NCBI GenBank assembly: GCA_021778515.1
Contig: JAJYCJ010000012.1
Coordinates: forward strand, 1 to 50,007
Direction of reading: 5' to 3'
Source: Acidobacteriota bacterium
GTDB lineage: Bacteria; Acidobacteriota; UBA4820; DSQY01
DNA: 50,007 nucleotides
Shown in pieces: positions 8,421 through 18,924 of this stretch. The stretch's first letter is position 1, and each line of letters opens with the position of its first letter. The notes beneath the pieces are model-generated. The model did not search any database and had not been told where the DNA came from. It saw only the letters and a list, made by a program, of their open reading frames with translations. The position numbers were made by a program, and so were the translations under genes.

Positions 8421-11400
8421 TCAAGGCCACTCCCAGGTCAGCGTCGTCTCCCCGAGGTCGGGATTCACCAAACGGAAGTCAGTGGGGGTGTACTTCGGCA
8501 CCACCTCTTTCAGGCTGGTGCCCCCCTTGAGCAGGACCTGGTTCGGGTTCTTCCACTTCGTCACCGACCACGGCGTCCCGTTGATGTACACCTGGATGCC
8601 GCTCTGGAGGTTGCTCCCCGAAATGCTGATGCGGAAGGGGCTGCCCAGCTTGCGCATGGCGGTCACCACCGGCGGCGGAGCCGTCACGGAGATGGTCCCC
8701 GTTTTGGTGCAGACGGCCGCGTCGACCCGCACCGTCAGCGTCCAGGTGAAGGTCCCCGAGGTGGTGTAGGCGTACGAGGCATTCTGGGAGGTGGAGCTGC
8801 CCCCGTCCCCGAAGTCCCACTCGTAGGTTGCGCTTCCCGTGCATCCGTTGGGGGTGGCGGAGGCCTGGAAGGCCACCGGAGAAGCCTTGCCGGCCGAGGC
8901 GGGCACGCTCGCGCTGCACGTCAGCGTGCAGCCGCCTCCCCCCACGCTGGCGGTGTTGGACCATCCGCTCGTGCCCTGGTCGTAGACGGCCTTGGCCCGG
9001 TAGTAGAGGGCTCCCACGGGAGCGCCGGCATCGCTGTAGCTCGTCGAGGCCGGGGAGACCAGGGCGCCGTTGAGCTGCACGTAGCTGGAGTCGCTGTCCA
9101 CGGTGGCCCGGTAGAGGTTGTAGCCCTGCAGCACCGGCGTGGTGCTGCCTCCCCCCGTGATGGCCAGGGCGTAGGAGGAGTCCTGCGGTGCCGTGCAGGC
9201 ACCCCCCGTGAAGAGGTTCACGGCGAGCACGTAGGTGCCCGGTGTCAGCGCGAGCTGCACCACCTCGGGGTTGGAGCAGGTCACGCCGCAGTACGAGCTG
9301 CCGCAGGCGGGGTTGAGGATGTGGAGATCGGTGGTCAGGACCCACAGATCCAGGTCGGTGGTGGCCGCCGCCGTCAGGGCGATGGTGTAGGTGGCGCTCT
9401 GTCCGATGGAGAGCACGAAGAAGTCCTCGATCCGGTCGCCGTCCGGGTCCTGAATGCACCCTTCGGTGTCCGCCTGCTCCACGTGGCCCATGAGCGTGTC
9501 CCCGCTGAGGAGGGTCTGGTAGGGATCCGACCCGTAGCCGAGGATGCTGATGCAGCCGTTCGGTTCGGTCTCGCTCAGGGTGCTCTCCGGGCGGTCCGGA
9601 GCCGGGCATGCCGATTCCATCGGGCGCGGTCCTCCGGGAGGAAGAAGGAGGCCCTCTCCGAACGTCGGCTTGCCCGAGCTCTCGGCCTCGGTCACCTGCG
9701 TGCGCGAAGCCTGGAGGTTCTGCGGCGGGTTCAGGGCGCCCGCGGCGGGGGGCGACCAGGCCAGGTGGACGCCCGACCCTCCGCTGCCCACGGCGATGGT
9801 GCCCGTGCGGCTGCACGTGGTGCCGCCGACGGAGGCGGTCATGGTCCAGCCGTAGGTCGCCGGTGCGGTGTAGGTGTGGGTCGGGTTCTGCTGGGACGAG
9901 TGGGCGGAGCCGTCCCCGAAGTCCCAATCGTAGCTCACGGAGCCCGAGCAGCTGCTGGGCGTGGCCGTGGCCTGGAAGGAGACCGGCGTCCCGACGGAGG
10001 CGCTGGAGGGGGCGCTGGCCGAGCAGGTGAGCGTGCAGCCGGAGGAGGTCCCCACGGTGAAGGAGATCGTGGAGCCCGCCGCGCTGCCGATCCCGGAGAT
10101 CTGCAATCCGCCCGGAGAGCCGGTGGAGAGGAATCCGCTCGGGCTCGTGGCATCGTTGATGGCCGTCCGGCCCGACTCGCCGGAGTAGTAGGCGCCAGCA
10201 GGGGTGCCGTCGCTGGTCGTGGTGCCCCCGGGACGGTAGACGTAGAGCTCATCGGGAGGCCCCTCCCGGTTGCCGTTGCCGTCCTCCGCGGTGTTGACCC
10301 TGAAGACCAGGAGCCCCGAGCCGGGCAGCTGGCTCTCGAATCCGCCGGTGGTGCGCTGGCGGTACTCCACCACGTAGTACTCGGTGGAGGAGTTGGGGGA
10401 GGGAATCTTGTAGCAGTTGTTCGTGGAGGAGGTGAGCGGGTTCAGGGAGTAGACCCCGGGGGAGGTGATCTCCGGGATCGAGGCGATCCAGCCGCCGTAC
10501 CGGTACTTCATGTAGGCGCTCATGTGCTGGGGCGGGTTCAGGTCGTACTCCATGATGTCCCACTTGTAGACGGGCTGGAGGCCGTCGTAGCTGTAATGGT
10601 AGAGGTCCGGCGCGCCCAGGGAGTGGAACATCTCGTGGCAGAGGACCCCCACCGCCAGCACGCTCTGGAGCTGGAAGTTGTAGGTGTAGACGCGCTTGCC
10701 GTTGATGGTGGCGGTCACGCTGTAGAGGCTCCAGCGGTGGGGCCAGAGCAGGTCCGACCAGCCGCCGGGCGAGCCCTTCACGACGAAGATCACGTTGTCC
10801 ACGTTCCCGTCACCGTCCCCGTCCAGGTTGAGGCCCGCGGGCACCAGGTAGGCCACGGCCTCCACGGCGCTCTTCAGGAGGGCGTGTTCACGGTCCCTCC
10901 TCTCGGTGTCGCCGCTGTAGCCCGTGGGGTTGCTCGCTGCGTTGTAGGGCTGATAGTAGGCCCGCGGCTGGGAGTCCTGGTAGGAGACCACGGTGCCTCC
11001 CGGCGTCGGGTAGAAGGTGCTGGAGAGGGTGAGCGCCCCGTAGGAGACCGCCTGGTAGTAATTCTTCAGCGAGCTGGCGCCCGGCGAGGAGTTGTTGAGC
11101 AGGTCGTCGTAGAAGCTGATGGGATCGGTGAACTCGCTGTCGTCGCTGAACCGGACGAAGATCACCAGGTTGTTGATCGTGCCGGTGGTGGGGGCCGGCG
11201 CCGGCGGATGCGCCTCCAGGAGGGCCCGGCGCGCCTCCACCTCCGCCCTCGATACCCGGGGGCGTGTGGCCAGCCCCAGCCCGGCGGGGTCCACCCGTCC
11301 GGCCACGTAAGCCGTGGGTATCAGCGCGTCGCCCGACTCCCGCGCATAGACGTAGAATCCCGTCCGGGGGTCCTGCATGATGATGTACCCCCGGGCGTCG

Positions 11401-11603
11401 TGCAGCCAGTTGAAGAACTCGTCCCCCGTGGCCAGGCACTGGAGGGCGGCGCCGTCCGGCTGGACCACCGTCACCGGCACGTTCCTCAGATAGGCCGCCC
11501 GGCTCGCCAGCGACACCCAGAGGAGCCCCAGCAGGACCACCGTCAAACCAAGCCAGCGGCGCCGAGGGCTCTCCCTCCGCGCACCCGTCGTCGTGGTGCC
11601 CAT
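8421..11603 (-). CDS. secreted M6-family metalloprotease with PKD and PPC domains
   Basis: 1060 aa, exported: after a basic N-terminus comes a hydrophobic segment (WLGLTVVLLGLLWVSLASRA). The M6 (immune-inhibitor-A type) zinc protease domain has HEMFHSLGAPDLYH, with the first His at residue 323. Then follow a PKD domain (about 530-610, YDWDFGDGSAH), an FN3-like stretch, a PPC-type beta domain (about 745-830, LDLWVLTTDL), a second PKD (YEWDFGDGGSS) and an IPT/TIG-like C-terminal domain. Such proteases degrade extracellular protein. GGAGGGAGA precedes the ATG, with a promoter at 11695-11723. Confidence 0.93.
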   Translation of the reverse strand: MGTTTTGARRESPRRRWLGLTVVLLGLLWVSLASRAAYLRNVPVTVVQPDGAALQCLATGDEFFNWLHDARGYIIMQDPRTGFYVYARESGDALIPTAYVAGRVDPAGLGLATRPRVSRAEVEARRALLEAHPPAPAPTTGTINNLVIFVRFSDDSEFTDPISFYDDLLNNSSPGASSLKNYYQAVSYGALTLSSTFYPTPGGTVVSYQDSQPRAYYQPYNAASNPTGYSGDTERRDREHALLKSAVEAVAYLVPAGLNLDGDGDGNVDNVIFVVKGSPGGWSDLLWPHRWSLYSVTATINGKRVYTYNFQLQSVLAVGVLCHEMFHSLGAPDLYHYSYDGLQPVYKWDIMEYDLNPPQHMSAYMKYRYGGWIASIPEITSPGVYSLNPLTSSTNNCYKIPSPNSSTEYYVVEYRQRTTGGFESQLPGSGLLVFRVNTAEDGNGNREGPPDELYVYRPGGTTTSDGTPAGAYYSGESGRTAINDATSPSGFLSTGSPGGLQISGIGSAAGSTISFTVGTSSGCTLTCSASAPSSASVGTPVSFQATATPSSCSGSVSYDWDFGDGSAHSSQQNPTHTYTAPATYGWTMTASVGGTTCSRTGTIAVGSGGSGVHLAWSPPAAGALNPPQNLQASRTQVTEAESSGKPTFGEGLLLPPGGPRPMESACPAPDRPESTLSETEPNGCISILGYGSDPYQTLLSGDTLMGHVEQADTEGCIQDPDGDRIEDFFVLSIGQSATYTIALTAAATTDLDLWVLTTDLHILNPACGSSYCGVTCSNPEVVQLALTPGTYVLAVNLFTGGACTAPQDSSYALAITGGGSTTPVLQGYNLYRATVDSDSSYVQLNGALVSPASTSYSDAGAPVGALYYRAKAVYDQGTSGWSNTASVGGGGCTLTCSASVPASAGKASPVAFQASATPNGCTGSATYEWDFGDGGSSTSQNASYAYTTSGTFTWTLTVRVDAAVCTKTGTISVTAPPPVVTAMRKLGSPFRISISGSNLQSGIQVYINGTPWSVTKWKNPNQVLLKGGTSLKEVVPKYTPTDFRLVNPDLGETTLTWEWP

Positions 11604-11753: not shown

Positions 11754-14075
11754 TCAGCGGAGGAGGCCCAGGAGCCTCGTGGCCGCAGATTCTGGGCTTC
11801 CCACGGCGGTGTTGAGCAGGAAGCAGGCGGCGGCGCCGAAGAGGCCATCGTACTGGCGCCGGAGCGCCTCCGAGCGGGCCATGTCGGGGGCCGGAACGTG
11901 GGGGTTCTGGAAGGGTGCCGCGCCCCCTCCCGGCCGGCCCTCCGCGAGCAGTCCCGCCGCCTCGCGCGCGGGCAGCTCCTTGAGCGAGGGCAGGACGGGA
12001 TCCTTCGCCAGCAGGACGCAGACCCGCGGGGCGGTCCTGCGGACGTGCCGGGTGGCCCCTCCCAGCCAGTAGGGGTCGAGCATGATGCGGCCGTCCCTGG
12101 AGGCCGGCACGCAGGCCGCGGCTCCCAGATCCAGCGGGCACTGGTCCCCCTCCTTGCAGTACTCCAGGGAGCACTGGTCCCGGCTGGTGACCAGATTCTC
12201 CAGCTTGGAGCGCTCCATGAATCGCTCCAGCTCGGGCAGGTGCTGGACCCATTTGGCCTTGAGGTAGAGCTTGCGCTCCACGAGGTCGGCCACGGGCTGT
12301 CCCTGGGGCATCCTCACCAGAAGGTTGTCGGTGGAGACCAGGCGCACCCCTTCCTCCCGGAGAGCCGCCGCCAGGATGGCGGTCCGCCCCGAGCCGGGCC
12401 CGCCCCAGATCAGCAGGCCTCGGCCGTCCACGTCGAGGGCGGCGCAGTGGGCGAAGAGTGCTCCCGAGGCGCGCGAGGCCTGCTCGGCCGCCAGGGCCAG
12501 CGCCAGGGAGCGCACCTGGCCGTAGAAGGCGGTGTTGAAGGCGAAGCCGGTGGCCGTCTCCAGGCTCAGGCTGGCCTGGGCCTCGCGCCCCGGGATGTCC
12601 TTCACCGCGTAGAGCACGGCGTGCGGTTCCAGCTCCCCCTCCAGGGGCGCCGGGTAGAAGTTCTCCTGGTAGAAGTCGGCCAGGTGCGGAGAGTTGGTCC
12701 TCAGCTGCACCACGGCCCCGGCGATGGCGGCGTTCCACTCGAAGTAGGCCTCGGGCTTGAGGTGGGCCTGGGCCGCGGAGAGGAGGGCGTTACGCCCGTC
12801 GATGCTGGGGATGGGGCGGACCTCCACGTAGGCGGAGACCTTGGTGGTGACGTTGTTGAGGGCGCGCGGGCGGATGCGCCTGGGCGTCTCCAGCCGCCTG
12901 AGGGCCTGCTCGATCCGGGCCATGCCCTCCTGCAGGCGCTCCATGGAGGTGGCGAAGGAGAGGCGCAGGTGCTCGGGTGCCTCGAAGGCCTCGCCAGGCA
13001 CCACCGCCACGCGGGCCTCCCTGAGCAGGTAGTAGGCGAGGCCGTAGGTGTTGCGGATGGGGGCCCCACCGAACTCCTTGTCCAGGTAGGCCGCCACGTT
13101 CGGCATGGCGTAGAAGGCCCCCTGGGGAGAGTTGCAGGAGACGTCGGGCAGGGAGCGAAGGCGGTAGACGACGAAGTTGCGCCGCCTCTCGAATTCCGCC
13201 CTCATCCGCTCCACCTCGGGCGCGCAGGATCGCAGGGCCTCCACGGCCGCCTTCTGGACGAAGCTCGTGGCGTTGGAGGTGGAGTGGGACTGGATCTTGG
13301 AGCAGGCGGCGATGATCTCCCGCGGGCCCGCGGCGTAACCGAGGCGCCAGCCCGTCATGGAGTAGGCCTTGGAGAAGCCGTTCACCACCACCGTGAGCTT
13401 CTTGATCTTCTCGTCGAGGCTCGCGATGGAGACGAACCGGGAGCCGTCGTACAGGAGCTTCTCGTAGATCTCGTCGGCGATGACCCAGATCTGCTCCTTC
13501 ACGCAGAGGGCGGCGATGGCCTCCAGCTCCTCGCGGGAGTACATGGCCCCCGTCGGGTTGCAGGGGTAGTTCAGGAGGAGCGCCTTGGTGTTGGGGGTGA
13601 TGGCCGCCTGGAGGTCCTTGGCCTGAAGGCGGAAGCCCTCCTCCTCGCGGGTGGGCACCAGAACGGGGTTTCCCCCCGCCATGCGCACCTGGTCGGGGTA
13701 GGAGACCCAGCAGGGCGAGGGGATCAGCACGTCGTCGCCCGGCCCGAAGAGGGAGAGGGAGATGTTCAGCAGCGAGTGCTTGGCGCCCGTGGAGACGATG
13801 ATCTCGTTGGAGTCGTACGCGAGGCCGTTGTCCCGGAGCAGCTTCTCCCGGATGGCGGCCTTCAGCTCGGGGATGCCGTCGTTGGCCACGTACTTGGTGA
13901 AGTTGGCGTCGATGGCCGCCTTGGCGGCCCGCTTCACGGCCTCCGGTGAGGGGAAGTCCGGCTCGCCCGCGGAGAAGTCCACCACGTCGATGCCCTGGGC
14001 GCGCATCTCCAGGGCCCGCGCGGAGATCCGCAGCGTGGGGGAGAGGGAGATCCGGTTCACCCGATCCGACAGCAT
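11754..14075 (-). CDS. class I aminotransferase fused to an HPr-kinase/PEPCK-like P-loop domain
   Basis: 773 aa in one uninterrupted frame. Residues 1-395 form an aspartate-aminotransferase-like enzyme: NYPCNPTG (167-174), Asp201 in ADEIYE, Schiff-base Lys236 in NGFSKAYSMTGWRLGY and the substrate Arg in HLRLSFA. After a linker (RRIRPRALNNVTTK), residues about 405-773 resemble HPr kinase: a P-loop GPGSGRT (559-565), a Walker-B-like LVSTDNLLVRM, a cysteine-rich loop (QCSLEYCKEGDQC) and a helical end. The kinase-like half has Arg in place of the usual P-loop Lys. HPr kinase and PEP carboxykinase share this fold, and a PEPCK homologue lies 1.8 kb away. The role of the fusion is unknown to me. Confidence 0.85.
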   Translation of the reverse strand: MLSDRVNRISLSPTLRISARALEMRAQGIDVVDFSAGEPDFPSPEAVKRAAKAAIDANFTKYVANDGIPELKAAIREKLLRDNGLAYDSNEIIVSTGAKHSLLNISLSLFGPGDDVLIPSPCWVSYPDQVRMAGGNPVLVPTREEEGFRLQAKDLQAAITPNTKALLLNYPCNPTGAMYSREELEAIAALCVKEQIWVIADEIYEKLLYDGSRFVSIASLDEKIKKLTVVVNGFSKAYSMTGWRLGYAAGPREIIAACSKIQSHSTSNATSFVQKAAVEALRSCAPEVERMRAEFERRRNFVVYRLRSLPDVSCNSPQGAFYAMPNVAAYLDKEFGGAPIRNTYGLAYYLLREARVAVVPGEAFEAPEHLRLSFATSMERLQEGMARIEQALRRLETPRRIRPRALNNVTTKVSAYVEVRPIPSIDGRNALLSAAQAHLKPEAYFEWNAAIAGAVVQLRTNSPHLADFYQENFYPAPLEGELEPHAVLYAVKDIPGREAQASLSLETATGFAFNTAFYGQVRSLALALAAEQASRASGALFAHCAALDVDGRGLLIWGGPGSGRTAILAAALREEGVRLVSTDNLLVRMPQGQPVADLVERKLYLKAKWVQHLPELERFMERSKLENLVTSRDQCSLEYCKEGDQCPLDLGAAACVPASRDGRIMLDPYWLGGATRHVRRTAPRVCVLLAKDPVLPSLKELPAREAAGLLAEGRPGGGAAPFQNPHVPAPDMARSEALRRQYDGLFGAAACFLLNTAVGSPESAATRLLGLLR

Positions 14076-14093
14076 GAAAACCCCTCAGCAATG

Positions 14094-14177
14094 ACCACCA
14101 CGGCACCAAGACACCAAGAAAATACGTGTGGTTTTAGAAGACGAATCTACCTTCGTGCCTTGGTGTCTTGGTGGTTA
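14094..14177. repeat. palindromic intergenic element, CACCAAGG type
   Basis: Two arms face each other: CACCACGGCACCAAGACACCAAG on the left and its near reverse complement CTTCGTGCCTTGGTGTCTTGGTGG on the right, around about 30 bases of unrelated sequence. Each arm is itself built of an 8-base unit (CACCAAGA, CACCAAGG, CACGAAGG). It fills the gap between the fusion gene and the flotillin gene. The architecture matches the elements at 23.2, 30.1 and 32.8 kb. Confidence 0.75.
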
Positions 14178-15834: not shown

Positions 15835-17712
15835 ATGAGCGAGGGTCCGTACGATCCCGACGTCTACCGGCGCTTCGCCGAGAACCTGAAGGGGGCCCTT
15901 TCCGGCTCCAACATCCAGCACCCCTCCGTGCGCCGCCTCCGCCGCCTGGCGCTCAAGAGCGCCAGGAAGACGGTCAACGGCTCGGCCCTCTGGACCTCGG
16001 CCATCTCCTCGCGGCAGGCGGCCAGGACCGTCTACCTGGGGGACGAGGGCGTCCAGCTCCCCACTCCCTCGGCCGGCCAGCTCTCCATCGTGGAGAAGGC
16101 GCCCGAACAGCTCCACAAGGTCCTCCAGCTCCTGAAGACGCAGCCCTTCGTCCACGTGCGGCGCCGGATGGGTGATAACGCCGAGTTCAACCCAGTCTGC
16201 AATCTCTACGTGAGCGTTTCCGATCCGAAGAACTATCGCCTGGCCTACGAATGGGCCATGACCATGGGGCCTGTGAGCCGGGGACGCCCCGGTCCCGAGT
16301 TTGTGATGATCCACGTTCCCGAGGAGCACCAGCTCCGCATGCAGATCCTGGTCCTCCCCCAGCACGGCATCAACATCGCCATGGGGACCGACTACACGGG
16401 CGAGTGCAAGAAGGGCTTCCTGCGCCAGGGGATGTACAGCGCGGACATGCAGGGCATGCTGGGCCTGCACGCGGGCACCAAGGTGGTCCGCGTGCAAGAC
16501 TCCCGGACGGGCCAGCTCAGGACCTGCGGCGTCTTCATGTTCGGCCTCACGGCCACGGGCAAGTCCACCTGGTCCTGCCACCAGCTCGGCCTCGATCCCG
16601 CGCTCGGCGAAGGCACCTGGGTGGCGCAGGACGACATCGTCATGCTCCGGCGCGACGGCTCGGCCCTGGGCACGGAGCAGGGCTTCTACGTGAAGACCGA
16701 CGTGGACCCGGCCCTCCAGGAGGCCATGTACCACGCGCTGGCCCACAAGTCGGCGCTCCTGGAGAACGTCATGGTGGACGGCCGGGGGAAGATCAGCTTC
16801 CTGGACGAGCGCCTGGGCGAGAACGGCCGGGGCGTCCTGGACCGCCGCCAGCTCAAGGTGAAGCGGGGCGGCAAGCTGGTTTCCATCTGCGCCGACTCCA
16901 TCGACCTGCCCAGCCTCGACCACCTGGACGGCCTGGTCTTCGCCTTCATCACGCGGCGAGGCACCATCATGCCCTTCGCCCAGCGCCTCACGCCCGAGCA
17001 GGGCGTGCTCGCCTACCTCTGGGGCGAGTCCACGCACTCCTTCGCCACGGTGCCCGAGAAGGCCGGCGAGTCGGTGCGCATCGTGGGCATGGACGACTTC
17101 ATCGTGGGCCCCCAGGGCCGGAAGGTGAACGCCTTCCACGACATCGTGATGGGCCTGGTGCACAGGCACCCGGGCAAGGTCCACTTCTTCCAGTACAACA
17201 CGGGCGGCGTGGGCGAGATCATCGAGAAGGACCCGGCCACCGGGAAGAGGAAGCTCGTCCGCAAGGTGCAGCGCGTTCCCCTGGACCTCATGGCCGCCCT
17301 GCAGCGGGGCGACCTGAGGGGAACCAACGAGTACCGCAAGGGCCGGCTGGGAACCGAGGAGGTCGTGAAGTGCGAAGGGGCCGACCTGGGCCAGTACGAC
17401 CCCAAGAACTTCTACTCCGAGGAGCAGATCGCCGCCTACGTGGCGGACCTCGTGGAGGGGCGGAGGGCCTTCACCGAGCAGATCGCCCGGGAGGGGCTCC
17501 GGAAGGAGATCCGAGAGCTGGCCCACCGCGAGCTCGATGCCATCGAGGGGGTGCGCCGGAAGGCCGAGCCCTGGGCCCCCCCGGAGCCGAAGATACGGAC
17601 CGACGCCGCCGAGGACCGCCTGCCCCTCTCCCCGCACATCACGCCGTGGGAGCACCGCCGGCCCAGCCGCGATCTCGTCCCCTTCCGCGGCACCGGGGGC
17701 GGGAAGTATTAG
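15835..17712 (+). CDS. divergent phosphoenolpyruvate carboxykinase (ATP)-type protein
   Basis: 625 aa, longer than standard ATP-PEPCK (about 530 aa). It has the family architecture: phosphate-binding loop GLTATGKST (237-245; usual form GLSGTGKTT), kinase-2-like AQDDIVML (264-271; usual form GDDEHGW) and a final region with long helical extensions. PEPCK converts oxaloacetate and ATP to PEP, CO2 and ADP. Because the kinase-2 motif and the segment after it (ALGTEQGFYVKTD) deviate, the substrate may differ. A GGGGGAGA site precedes the ATG. The C-terminal 60 residues are charged and proline-rich. Confidence 0.8.
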   Translation: MSEGPYDPDVYRRFAENLKGALSGSNIQHPSVRRLRRLALKSARKTVNGSALWTSAISSRQAARTVYLGDEGVQLPTPSAGQLSIVEKAPEQLHKVLQLLKTQPFVHVRRRMGDNAEFNPVCNLYVSVSDPKNYRLAYEWAMTMGPVSRGRPGPEFVMIHVPEEHQLRMQILVLPQHGINIAMGTDYTGECKKGFLRQGMYSADMQGMLGLHAGTKVVRVQDSRTGQLRTCGVFMFGLTATGKSTWSCHQLGLDPALGEGTWVAQDDIVMLRRDGSALGTEQGFYVKTDVDPALQEAMYHALAHKSALLENVMVDGRGKISFLDERLGENGRGVLDRRQLKVKRGGKLVSICADSIDLPSLDHLDGLVFAFITRRGTIMPFAQRLTPEQGVLAYLWGESTHSFATVPEKAGESVRIVGMDDFIVGPQGRKVNAFHDIVMGLVHRHPGKVHFFQYNTGGVGEIIEKDPATGKRKLVRKVQRVPLDLMAALQRGDLRGTNEYRKGRLGTEEVVKCEGADLGQYDPKNFYSEEQIAAYVADLVEGRRAFTEQIAREGLRKEIRELAHRELDAIEGVRRKAEPWAPPEPKIRTDAAEDRLPLSPHITPWEHRRPSRDLVPFRGTGGGKY

Positions 17713-17793
17713 GTCACCGCCCCTCATCACTTGTCTGAGCGAGCGTGTGGGAGAAGTGCCTTGGCCTTTGATCTGCTGGAGAAGGAGGCGGTC

Positions 17794-18924
17794 ATGAAGA
17801 TCGTGGTATTGGGCGCCGGACGGGTGGGCAGCGCCATCGCCCGGGACCTGGCGGCCGAGGGCGAATTCGAGGTGGTGGCGGCCGACCTCTCCCAGGGAGC
17901 GCTCGACCGTCTCGCGGAGAGCTCCGGCATCGCGACCCGCCGGACGGACCTGGGTGACCCGGCGGAGGTGGCGGCCGCCGTGCGGCCGGCGGACCTGGTG
18001 GTGGGGGCCGTGCCGGGCTCCATGGGCTTCGCCACCGTGAAGCGGGTCATCGAGTGCGGCAAGCCCATCGTGGACATCTCCTTCTTCGAGGAGGACCCCT
18101 TTCTCCTGGACGATCTGGCCAGGGACAAGGGAGTCACGGCGGTGGTGGACTGCGGCATCGCCCCCGGCTGTGGCAACATCATCCTCGGCTACCTGGAGAC
18201 GGTCCTGGAGCGCCTGCACAGCTTCGAGTGCCTCGTGGGCGGACTGCCCGTCGTGCGGACCTGGCCCTACGAGTACAAGGCCGTCTTCTCGCCGGCGGAC
18301 GTGATCGAGGAGTACACGCGGCCGGCGCGCTACGTCTCGCACGGCCGGGTGGTCTCCATGCCGGCCCTGTCCGAACCCGAGCTCATCGACTTCCCCGGCG
18401 TCGGGACGCTCGAGGCCTTCAACACGGACGGCCTGCGCTCCCTCATCACGACGGTCAAGGCTCCCTTCATGAAGGAGCGGACCCTCCGTTACCCGGGCCA
18501 CATCGAGAAGATGAGGATGCTCCGGGAGACCGGCTTTTTCCGCAAGGAGCCCGTGGATCTCCCGGGAGGGCGCGTCAGCCCCCTGGAGCTCACCGCCAAG
18601 CTGCTCTTCCACGAGTGGCGGCTCGGGGAAGGTGAGGAGGACATCACGGTGATGCGCGTCACCGTGGAGGGGGAGAAGGAGGGGCGGAAGGTCCGCCACG
18701 TCTTCGACCTGCTGGACCGCTACGACCCGGCCACGGGCATCACCTCCATGGCCCGCGCCACGGGCTACACCTGCACGGCGGGGGTCCGCGCCGTGGCCAG
18801 AGGCCTCTACCGCCGCCCCGGCATCTCCCCGCCCGAATATCTGGGGCGCGAACCGGGCTGCTACCTGTTCGTGATGCAGGAGCTGGCCAAGCGGGGCGTG
18901 GTCTTCCGCGAGAGCGTGACCTGA
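17794..18924 (+). CDS. saccharopine dehydrogenase-like oxidoreductase
   Basis: 376 aa. N-terminal Rossmann fold with 'KIVVLGAGRVGSAIARDL' (GxGxxG at 8-13), then the family's 'VDCGIAPGCGNIILGY' and a catalytic domain typical of the Lys9/saccharopine-dehydrogenase family, which splits or forms saccharopine-type amino acid conjugates with NAD(P). ATG 17794 has AAGGAGG 7 bases upstream. It follows the PEPCK-like gene by 81 bases and may be co-transcribed. An amino-acid link with the aminotransferase fusion is plausible but unproven. Confidence 0.88.
   Translation: MKIVVLGAGRVGSAIARDLAAEGEFEVVAADLSQGALDRLAESSGIATRRTDLGDPAEVAAAVRPADLVVGAVPGSMGFATVKRVIECGKPIVDISFFEEDPFLLDDLARDKGVTAVVDCGIAPGCGNIILGYLETVLERLHSFECLVGGLPVVRTWPYEYKAVFSPADVIEEYTRPARYVSHGRVVSMPALSEPELIDFPGVGTLEAFNTDGLRSLITTVKAPFMKERTLRYPGHIEKMRMLRETGFFRKEPVDLPGGRVSPLELTAKLLFHEWRLGEGEEDITVMRVTVEGEKEGRKVRHVFDLLDRYDPATGITSMARATGYTCTAGVRAVARGLYRRPGISPPEYLGREPGCYLFVMQELAKRGVVFRESVT

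Follow-up and report, generated by a model that had tools for sequence, protein, structure and literature searches.

An aspartate aminotransferase fused to a PEPCK-like domain and encoded next to a flotillin-like gene in four bacterial phyla

Introduction

The known group I-gamma aspartate aminotransferases (AspATs), such as those of PDB entries 1j32, 6f35, 6f77 and 5wmh, the last being the bifunctional aspartate/prephenate aminotransferase of Arabidopsis, stop at approximately 390-400 residues, the plant enzyme having a transit region in addition. PEP carboxykinase (PEPCK) and HPr kinase (HprK) have been placed in one kinase family group (PMC1079889).

The window (the whole stretch of 50,007 nucleotides from an Acidobacteriota bacterium that was analysed here) carries on its minus strand a gene in which a 377-residue domain related to this family group is added to a complete AspAT (Table 1). 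A preliminary description had seen a class I aminotransferase running in frame into a P-loop domain, and knew of no standard enzyme with such a layout. The in-frame arrangement is borne out by a single frame of 773 residues without interruption, and no standard enzyme of this layout turned up. Neither a paper nor a family model describing the architecture was found in a search covering few subscription journals. Each module taken alone is of a known kind; the combination of modules, its single origin and its linkage to a flotillin-like gene are new.

Table 1. Coordinates of the features of the fusion locus in the window
Feature	Position	Strand	Basis or remark
Fusion gene, AspAT + PEPCK-like domain	11754..14075	(-)	ATG to stop, 773 aa, one open frame
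N-half, class I aspartate aminotransferase (residues 1-395), PLP Lys236	12890..14075	(-)	PF00155, PDB matches, motifs
C-half, divergent PEPCK/HPr-kinase superfamily domain (residues 397-773)	11754..12887	(-)	AF2 model, Foldseek, hhalign
P-loop remnant GGPGSGRT (residues 558-565); Arg564 at E. coli PEPCK Lys254 position	12381..12404	(-)	sequence
Cys motif C635-x4-C640-x5-C646-x8-C655; possible metal site	12111..12173	(-)	Cys count in relatives
Palindromic repeat in the flotillin-fusion intergenic region	14076..14174	(-)	hairpin -36.1 kcal/mol, z -3.7
Flotillin-like SPFH protein, 463 aa, N-terminal hydrophobic segment	14175..15566	(-)	Band_7, Flot; directly upstream of fusion
Divergent ATP-type PEP carboxykinase, 625 aa, divergently transcribed	15835..17712	(+)	PF01293, catalytic residues conserved

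Results and Discussion

Reality, distribution and origin of the fusion

The search for related loci gave 22 fused records, belonging to Acidobacteriota, Zixibacteria, one KSB1 genome and one unclassified bacterium. An assembly join between 12.8 and 12.9 kb, which the preliminary description had considered, or any other chimera was ruled out, since independently assembled genomes from four phyla show the same fusion in open frames of approximately 770-800 residues. Both halves are under purifying selection, with dN/dS values of 0.11-0.24 for the N-half and 0.26-0.39 for the C-half; taken together with the independent assemblies, this indicates that the fused frame is not an artefact.

At the genome scale, the fusion was detected in 32 of 297 Acidobacteriota genomes (C-half as query, E <= 1e-114; frames of ~770-800 aa, one of them cut at a contig start). 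In the phylum holding Zixibacteria, C-half matches were obtained for 42 of 132 genomes. This number includes two stand-alone proteins of another kind and several truncated at contig ends; approximately 40 of the 132 are fused. The phylum of the KSB1 genome gave matches in 6 of 82 genomes, one weak and partial, and a small fourth phylum in 6 of 8. Whole-genome searches of the four phyla did not bring up the C-half itself as a clear stand-alone protein, and in the fetched loci, where split halves had been looked for, no unfused AspAT has a separate C-half gene next to it.

The phylogenetic survey proposed in the preliminary description, besides finding the fusion in four phyla, recovers a single fused clade: all 48 fused sequences group together (100/99) in a tree built from 84 AspAT halves, which indicates that the fusion arose once. 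An unfused Zixibacteria member (L023), which has neither C-half nor flotillin, is nested in this clade, so the fusion was also lost at least once. The sister of the fused clade is formed, with weak support, by stand-alone AspATs of Cloacimonadota. One genome placed in Acidobacteriota (L017/L108/G016:C218) has a Zixibacteria-like copy with an NDK-PEPCK row that groups with Zixibacteria in the tree; either a misbinned contig or a horizontal transfer would account for it. A phage origin was also considered and dropped, no relative having been found in viral contigs.

The aminotransferase half

The PF00155 profile matches residues 30-388 of the fusion at 258 bits (cut-off 19.7; profile positions 2-361 of 361), and the closest PDB entries to the N-half are the group I aspartate aminotransferases 1j32 (E 1e-105), 6f35, 6f77 and 5wmh. 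Lys236 sits in the motif GFSKAYSMTGW and is invariant among fused relatives; with N173, D201, Y204, R244 and R371 (PLP site and alpha-carboxylate Arg) it is also unchanged throughout the alignment of 14 full-length fused proteins. The earlier assignment to a complete class I aminotransferase, with Lys236 and the PLP residues intact, is thus confirmed.

T14 and K99, which we take to be the residues recognizing the distal carboxylate of dicarboxylates, align exactly with T84 and K169 in the aspartate/prephenate aminotransferase of Arabidopsis and are both invariant in the fused set. From this alignment, aspartate or glutamate, possibly prephenate, would be expected as the substrate. The fusion does not pass NF041091, a curated equivalog naming the substrate (401.5 bits for a cut-off of 550). 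Other class I aminotransferases are present in the genome of the window, the nearest being 38% identical.

Fold and family of the C-terminal half

The AlphaFold2 model of residues 397-773 has a pLDDT of 86 and a pTM of 0.86; that of the full-length fusion reached a pTM of 0.51, without a reliable domain arrangement. When the C-half model was submitted to Foldseek, all 50 of the 50 best PDB matches listed were PEPCK, the first being E. coli PckA (2py7; E 5e-16, approximately 400 alignment columns for a 377-residue query). The TM-score is 0.68 by query length against 1os1, and 0.66-0.69 across ATP-PEPCK structures. In a profile search of PDB sequences, PEPCK came first and HprK second, both weak. 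The profile alignments obtained by hhalign are collinear with both PEPCK types, namely the canonical ATP-PEPCK (238-254 columns, score 61-75) and the type encoded next to the fusion (243-245 columns), when 20 column-shuffled controls gave a maximum score of 21.4 and unrelated families gave nothing. HprK-related proteins match the C-half profile at E 3e-15 and score above PEPCK, in an alignment limited to 152 columns around the P-loop.

Family models were less generous. Neither PEPCK profile (PF01293, PF00821) matches the C-half at E <= 1, and the HprK scores lie below the cut-off for PF07475 (14.4 bits, cut-off 33.3) and very far below it for TIGR00679 (15.5, 240), HprK_rel_A (TIGR04352; 28, within 200-240) and HprK_rel_B (TIGR04355; 22.3, 200). 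On the basis of the PEPCK fold matches, the collinear profiles and the weak HMM scores, we propose that the C-half, with its PEPCK-like overall fold as modelled, forms a new branch within the PEPCK/HprK superfamily and is neither an HprK nor a PEPCK enzyme.

The preliminary description had spoken of a domain like HPr kinase/PEPCK. The superfamily holds; the emphasis on HprK does not, PEPCK being far better in fold. At the level of sequence profiles both are related to the C-half, the HprK-related proteins with a higher score over fewer columns and PEPCK with a lower score over more. The structure prediction and fold search that it had recommended brought up no unrelated fold, PEPCK standing throughout the matches listed. 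Two other identities were discarded: a bona fide HprK, by the cut-offs and the fold, and an ordinary AAA/RuvB ATPase, since the weak phmmer matches (RuvB-like, VCP) span the P-loop region alone and were dropped after the fold search.

State of the active site

The catalytic positions of PEPCK, given with E. coli numbers, were mapped by profile onto the C-half. Lys212 corresponds to R522, invariant among C-halves. Lys213, a metal ligand in PEPCK, corresponds to S523, which is variable (S/K/T/N), and His232 to H543, which is His in 25 and Arg in 29 of 55 relatives. At position 564 (Lys254), Lys is found in 22 and Arg in 33 of the 55, and at T565 (Thr255) mostly Thr, with Gly in 10 of 55. D583 (Asp268/269) is Asp or Glu across C-halves, and R663 (Arg333) is Arg in 36 of 54. 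As a set, Lys254 and the metal ligands Lys213, His232 and Asp269 are not conserved (R564, S523, H543 and D583 in the window).

The letters GPGSGRT reported earlier as a P-loop are present, but they do not form a valid Walker A, since the lysine at 564 is Arg: the pattern GxxxxGK[ST] is absent from the window copy (GGPGSGRT) and retained in some sister lineages. The P-loop varies by lineage, being GTKKT in most of L094-L107, GRT in the clade of the window and GRG in L017-L019, while GKS/T together with an acidic D/DD is found in L140, L141, L143, L145 and L146. Because the P-loop lysine is lost and the metal residues of PEPCK are not kept, an ATP-kinase activity of the window copy is doubtful, and we infer that it was lost in the lineage of the window. 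The active kinase half suggested in the preliminary description is therefore not supported for this copy; regulation of the aminotransferase by the C-half, its other suggestion, is possible.

It would be unlikely, in our estimation, that the C-half in general is an active kinase of the superfamily, working on a small molecule or on a protein such as flotillin or the AspAT itself. The superfamily consists of phosphotransferases, the HprK-related profile match is in agreement with such an activity, many charged residues are invariant, and the lysine persists in the GKS/T loops and in the GTKKT loops. Against it are the Arg at the P-loop position in the majority of relatives, the window included, the Arg that replaces the HprK/PEPCK-site His in 29 of 55 and the Gly in place of the Walker A Thr in 10 of 55. 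The lineages that keep both GKS/T and D/DD may nevertheless have a working kinase, at least there.

The drift of the P-loop and metal positions is accompanied by near-invariance of E446, W447, N448, R459, N461, H464, E471, N472, R497, Y518, R522, E600, R601, K602, K624, E626, N627, D667, R680 and N755. Such a pattern, with R522, E600, R601, K602, E626 and N627 retained, would suit a pocket that is still used without the need for standard phosphotransfer, that is to say repurposed and not decaying.

The cysteine-rich loop noticed earlier is indeed present (C635, C640, C646 and C655). Most relatives have four Cys at 635-655; many in the clade of the window have three, with a His nearby, and in some Zixibacteria the count is two (C646, C655). 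This exchange between Cys and His among relatives hints at a putative metal site.

Linkage to a flotillin-like gene

The gene upstream passes both flotillin-related profiles (Band_7, 83 bits for a cut-off of 23.6; Flot, 31.4 bits for 27). In 22 of 23 fused loci (the window and 21 of the 22 related records), the gene immediately upstream of the fusion, on the same strand, is flotillin-like, the sole exception being L014, which starts inside the gene at a contig end. The fused loci taken from whole genomes with an upstream flank also have flotillin directly upstream, with a variation in L142, where the fusion and a flotillin fragment (31-residue match, E 2e-4) at the contig end are approximately 1.4 kb apart. 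In this locus, two open frames on the minus strand (207 and 251 aa; L142:5589-7094) stand between the two, as if inserted in the cassette. Beside unfused AspATs, flotillin was found in none of 56 loci, all but one of which (L036) extend at least 1.5 kb upstream. In the window, flotillin and fusion presumably belong to one operon. This strict linkage, together with the frequent linkage to PEPCK, is the most informative fact about the locus and was missing from the preliminary description.

Flotillin linkage being stricter than PEPCK linkage, the C-half could be thought of as a ligand-free module for membrane recruitment or oligomerization that serves flotillin only, the PEPCK linkage reflecting shared ancestry. 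We consider this improbable, since an inert adaptor would not need some 20 near-invariant polar residues, many of which match positions of the PEPCK active-site lobe.

Linkage to PEPCK

The neighbouring PEPCK (PF01293, 86.5 bits for a cut-off of 26.5) has K192, K193, H212, K243, S244, D266, D267 and R332 invariant among 12 sequences, and is the only PEPCK detected in the genome of the window. It represents a divergent subfamily with a C-terminal extension, scoring 299 bits with NF006821, under the cut-off of 369; in some genomes of the Zixibacteria phylum and in G161, this type coexists with a canonical ATP-PEPCK. A PEPCK gene adjoins the fusion in many lineages and in varied orientations, in three of the four phyla, and several Zixibacteria have a four-gene row of flotillin, fusion, NDK and PEPCK. 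Among the 297 Acidobacteriota genomes, the divergent type was found together with the fusion in 19 of 23 carriers (hypergeometric p 6e-18, kinship ignored). The 13 fused genomes that are devoid of it (families f41, f54 and f62), most of them with a GTP-PEPCK elsewhere, show that a dedicated PEPCK partner is not universal.

The substrate of PEPCK being the product of AspAT, a bifunctional enzyme may be envisaged, in which oxaloacetate would be channelled to the C-half for a PEPCK-like decarboxylation or another reaction. The PEPCK fold over nearly the whole C-half and an Arg equivalent to Arg333 in 36 of 54 sequences would fit, but the metal ligand Lys213 is not conserved, His232 is kept in part, Lys254 is Arg in most, and a separate true PEPCK is present in most of the fused genomes tested; we regard this reading as improbable.

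No further neighbour is common across lineages besides flotillin, PEPCK and, in Zixibacteria, NDK; the RNase PH, SIS, acyltransferase, release factor and citrate synthase neighbours are lineage-specific and look incidental. In the window, the core of the intergenic palindrome, CTTGGTGTCTTGGTGGT, has 13 copies in the genome (0 for the reversed control), four of them clustered on contig C115 with a spacing of 100-200 bases, as in a REP-like repeat. The downstream frame (8421-11603, minus strand, 1060 aa) has an HExxH-type motif, CHEMFHSLGAPD, and by eye resembles a secreted metalloprotease. Just past the PEPCK lies a saccharopine dehydrogenase-like gene (17791-18924, plus strand), with PF16653 and PF03435 above cut-off.

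Proposed role

Our preferred explanation, which we hold tentatively and as something slightly short of probable, is a flotillin-tethered AspAT whose PEPCK-derived domain senses a ligand or docks PEPCK. On this view, a domain of the PEPCK/HprK superfamily was added a single time to the C-terminus of an AspAT, which would have become co-inherited with a flotillin-like membrane scaffold. The AspAT half would interconvert aspartate and 2-oxoglutarate with oxaloacetate and glutamate. The PEPCK-like half, its PEPCK chemistry being gone in the lineage of the window, would keep a conserved pocket for a ligand (nucleotide, oxaloacetate or PEP) and act as a sensing or docking module, tuning the AspAT or positioning it relative to the true PEPCK next door (aspartate to oxaloacetate to PEP). 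Flotillin would recruit the fusion protein, giving a complex on a membrane flotillin platform. The analysis establishes the fusion itself, its single origin, the purifying selection and the linkage to flotillin and, frequently, to PEPCK, as well as both folds by prediction and profile; the AspAT substrate, the loss of kinase activity, ligand sensing, PEPCK docking and membrane localization are inferred. A more elaborate version, a flotillin-scaffolded aspartate/oxaloacetate/PEP metabolon in which the repurposed domain is both an allosteric sensor and the place where the real PEPCK docks at the membrane, is somewhat unlikely.

AspAT and PEPCK both act at the PEP-pyruvate-oxaloacetate node, and the fusion with its flotillin linkage suggests a point of control or assembly, linked to the membrane and not described before, where aspartate, oxaloacetate and PEP meet. 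The near-exceptionless linkage across four phyla would make the fusion a rare genome-written client of a bacterial flotillin, offering a direct test of whether bacterial flotillins organize central metabolism. The natural P-loop series GKS, KKT, GRT and GRG offers a means of following how a PEPCK/HprK-type phosphotransferase changes or loses its function.

Comparison with known systems

The likeness to the group I-gamma AspATs extends over the whole N-half, with the PLP lysine and T14/K99. With the ATP-dependent PEPCK (E. coli PckA; 1os1, 2py7), the C-half shares the fold over nearly its whole length and collinear P-loop and flanking motifs; it differs by the Arg in place of the P-loop Lys, the loss of the Lys213 equivalent, the partial retention of His232, the lack of a Pfam PEPCK match and of the C-terminal part of PEPCK, and by its extra Cys motif. 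With HprK and the HprK-related kinases A and B, the likeness is a local profile similarity near the P-loop, the C-half scoring 15-28 bits against cut-offs of 200-240 across the HprK models (TIGR00679, TIGR04352, TIGR04355) and the window copy being without the Walker A Lys. The closest unfused relatives of the C-half that were seen are stand-alone proteins of ~580-600 aa (L133:5645-7387 and L134:5423-7222, both on the minus strand), related to it in the N-lobe and P-loop region (E 6e-41) and without a Pfam match at E 0.001; unlike the C-half, they are not fused to an AspAT, have intact GTGKST and SDDW motifs and lack a flotillin neighbour. The upstream gene, finally, resembles the bacterial FloT (NF058507) by its Band_7 and Flot domains, but the orthologue in L104 scores 370 bits, under the cut-off of 700, and the flotillin is here partnered with an AspAT fusion.
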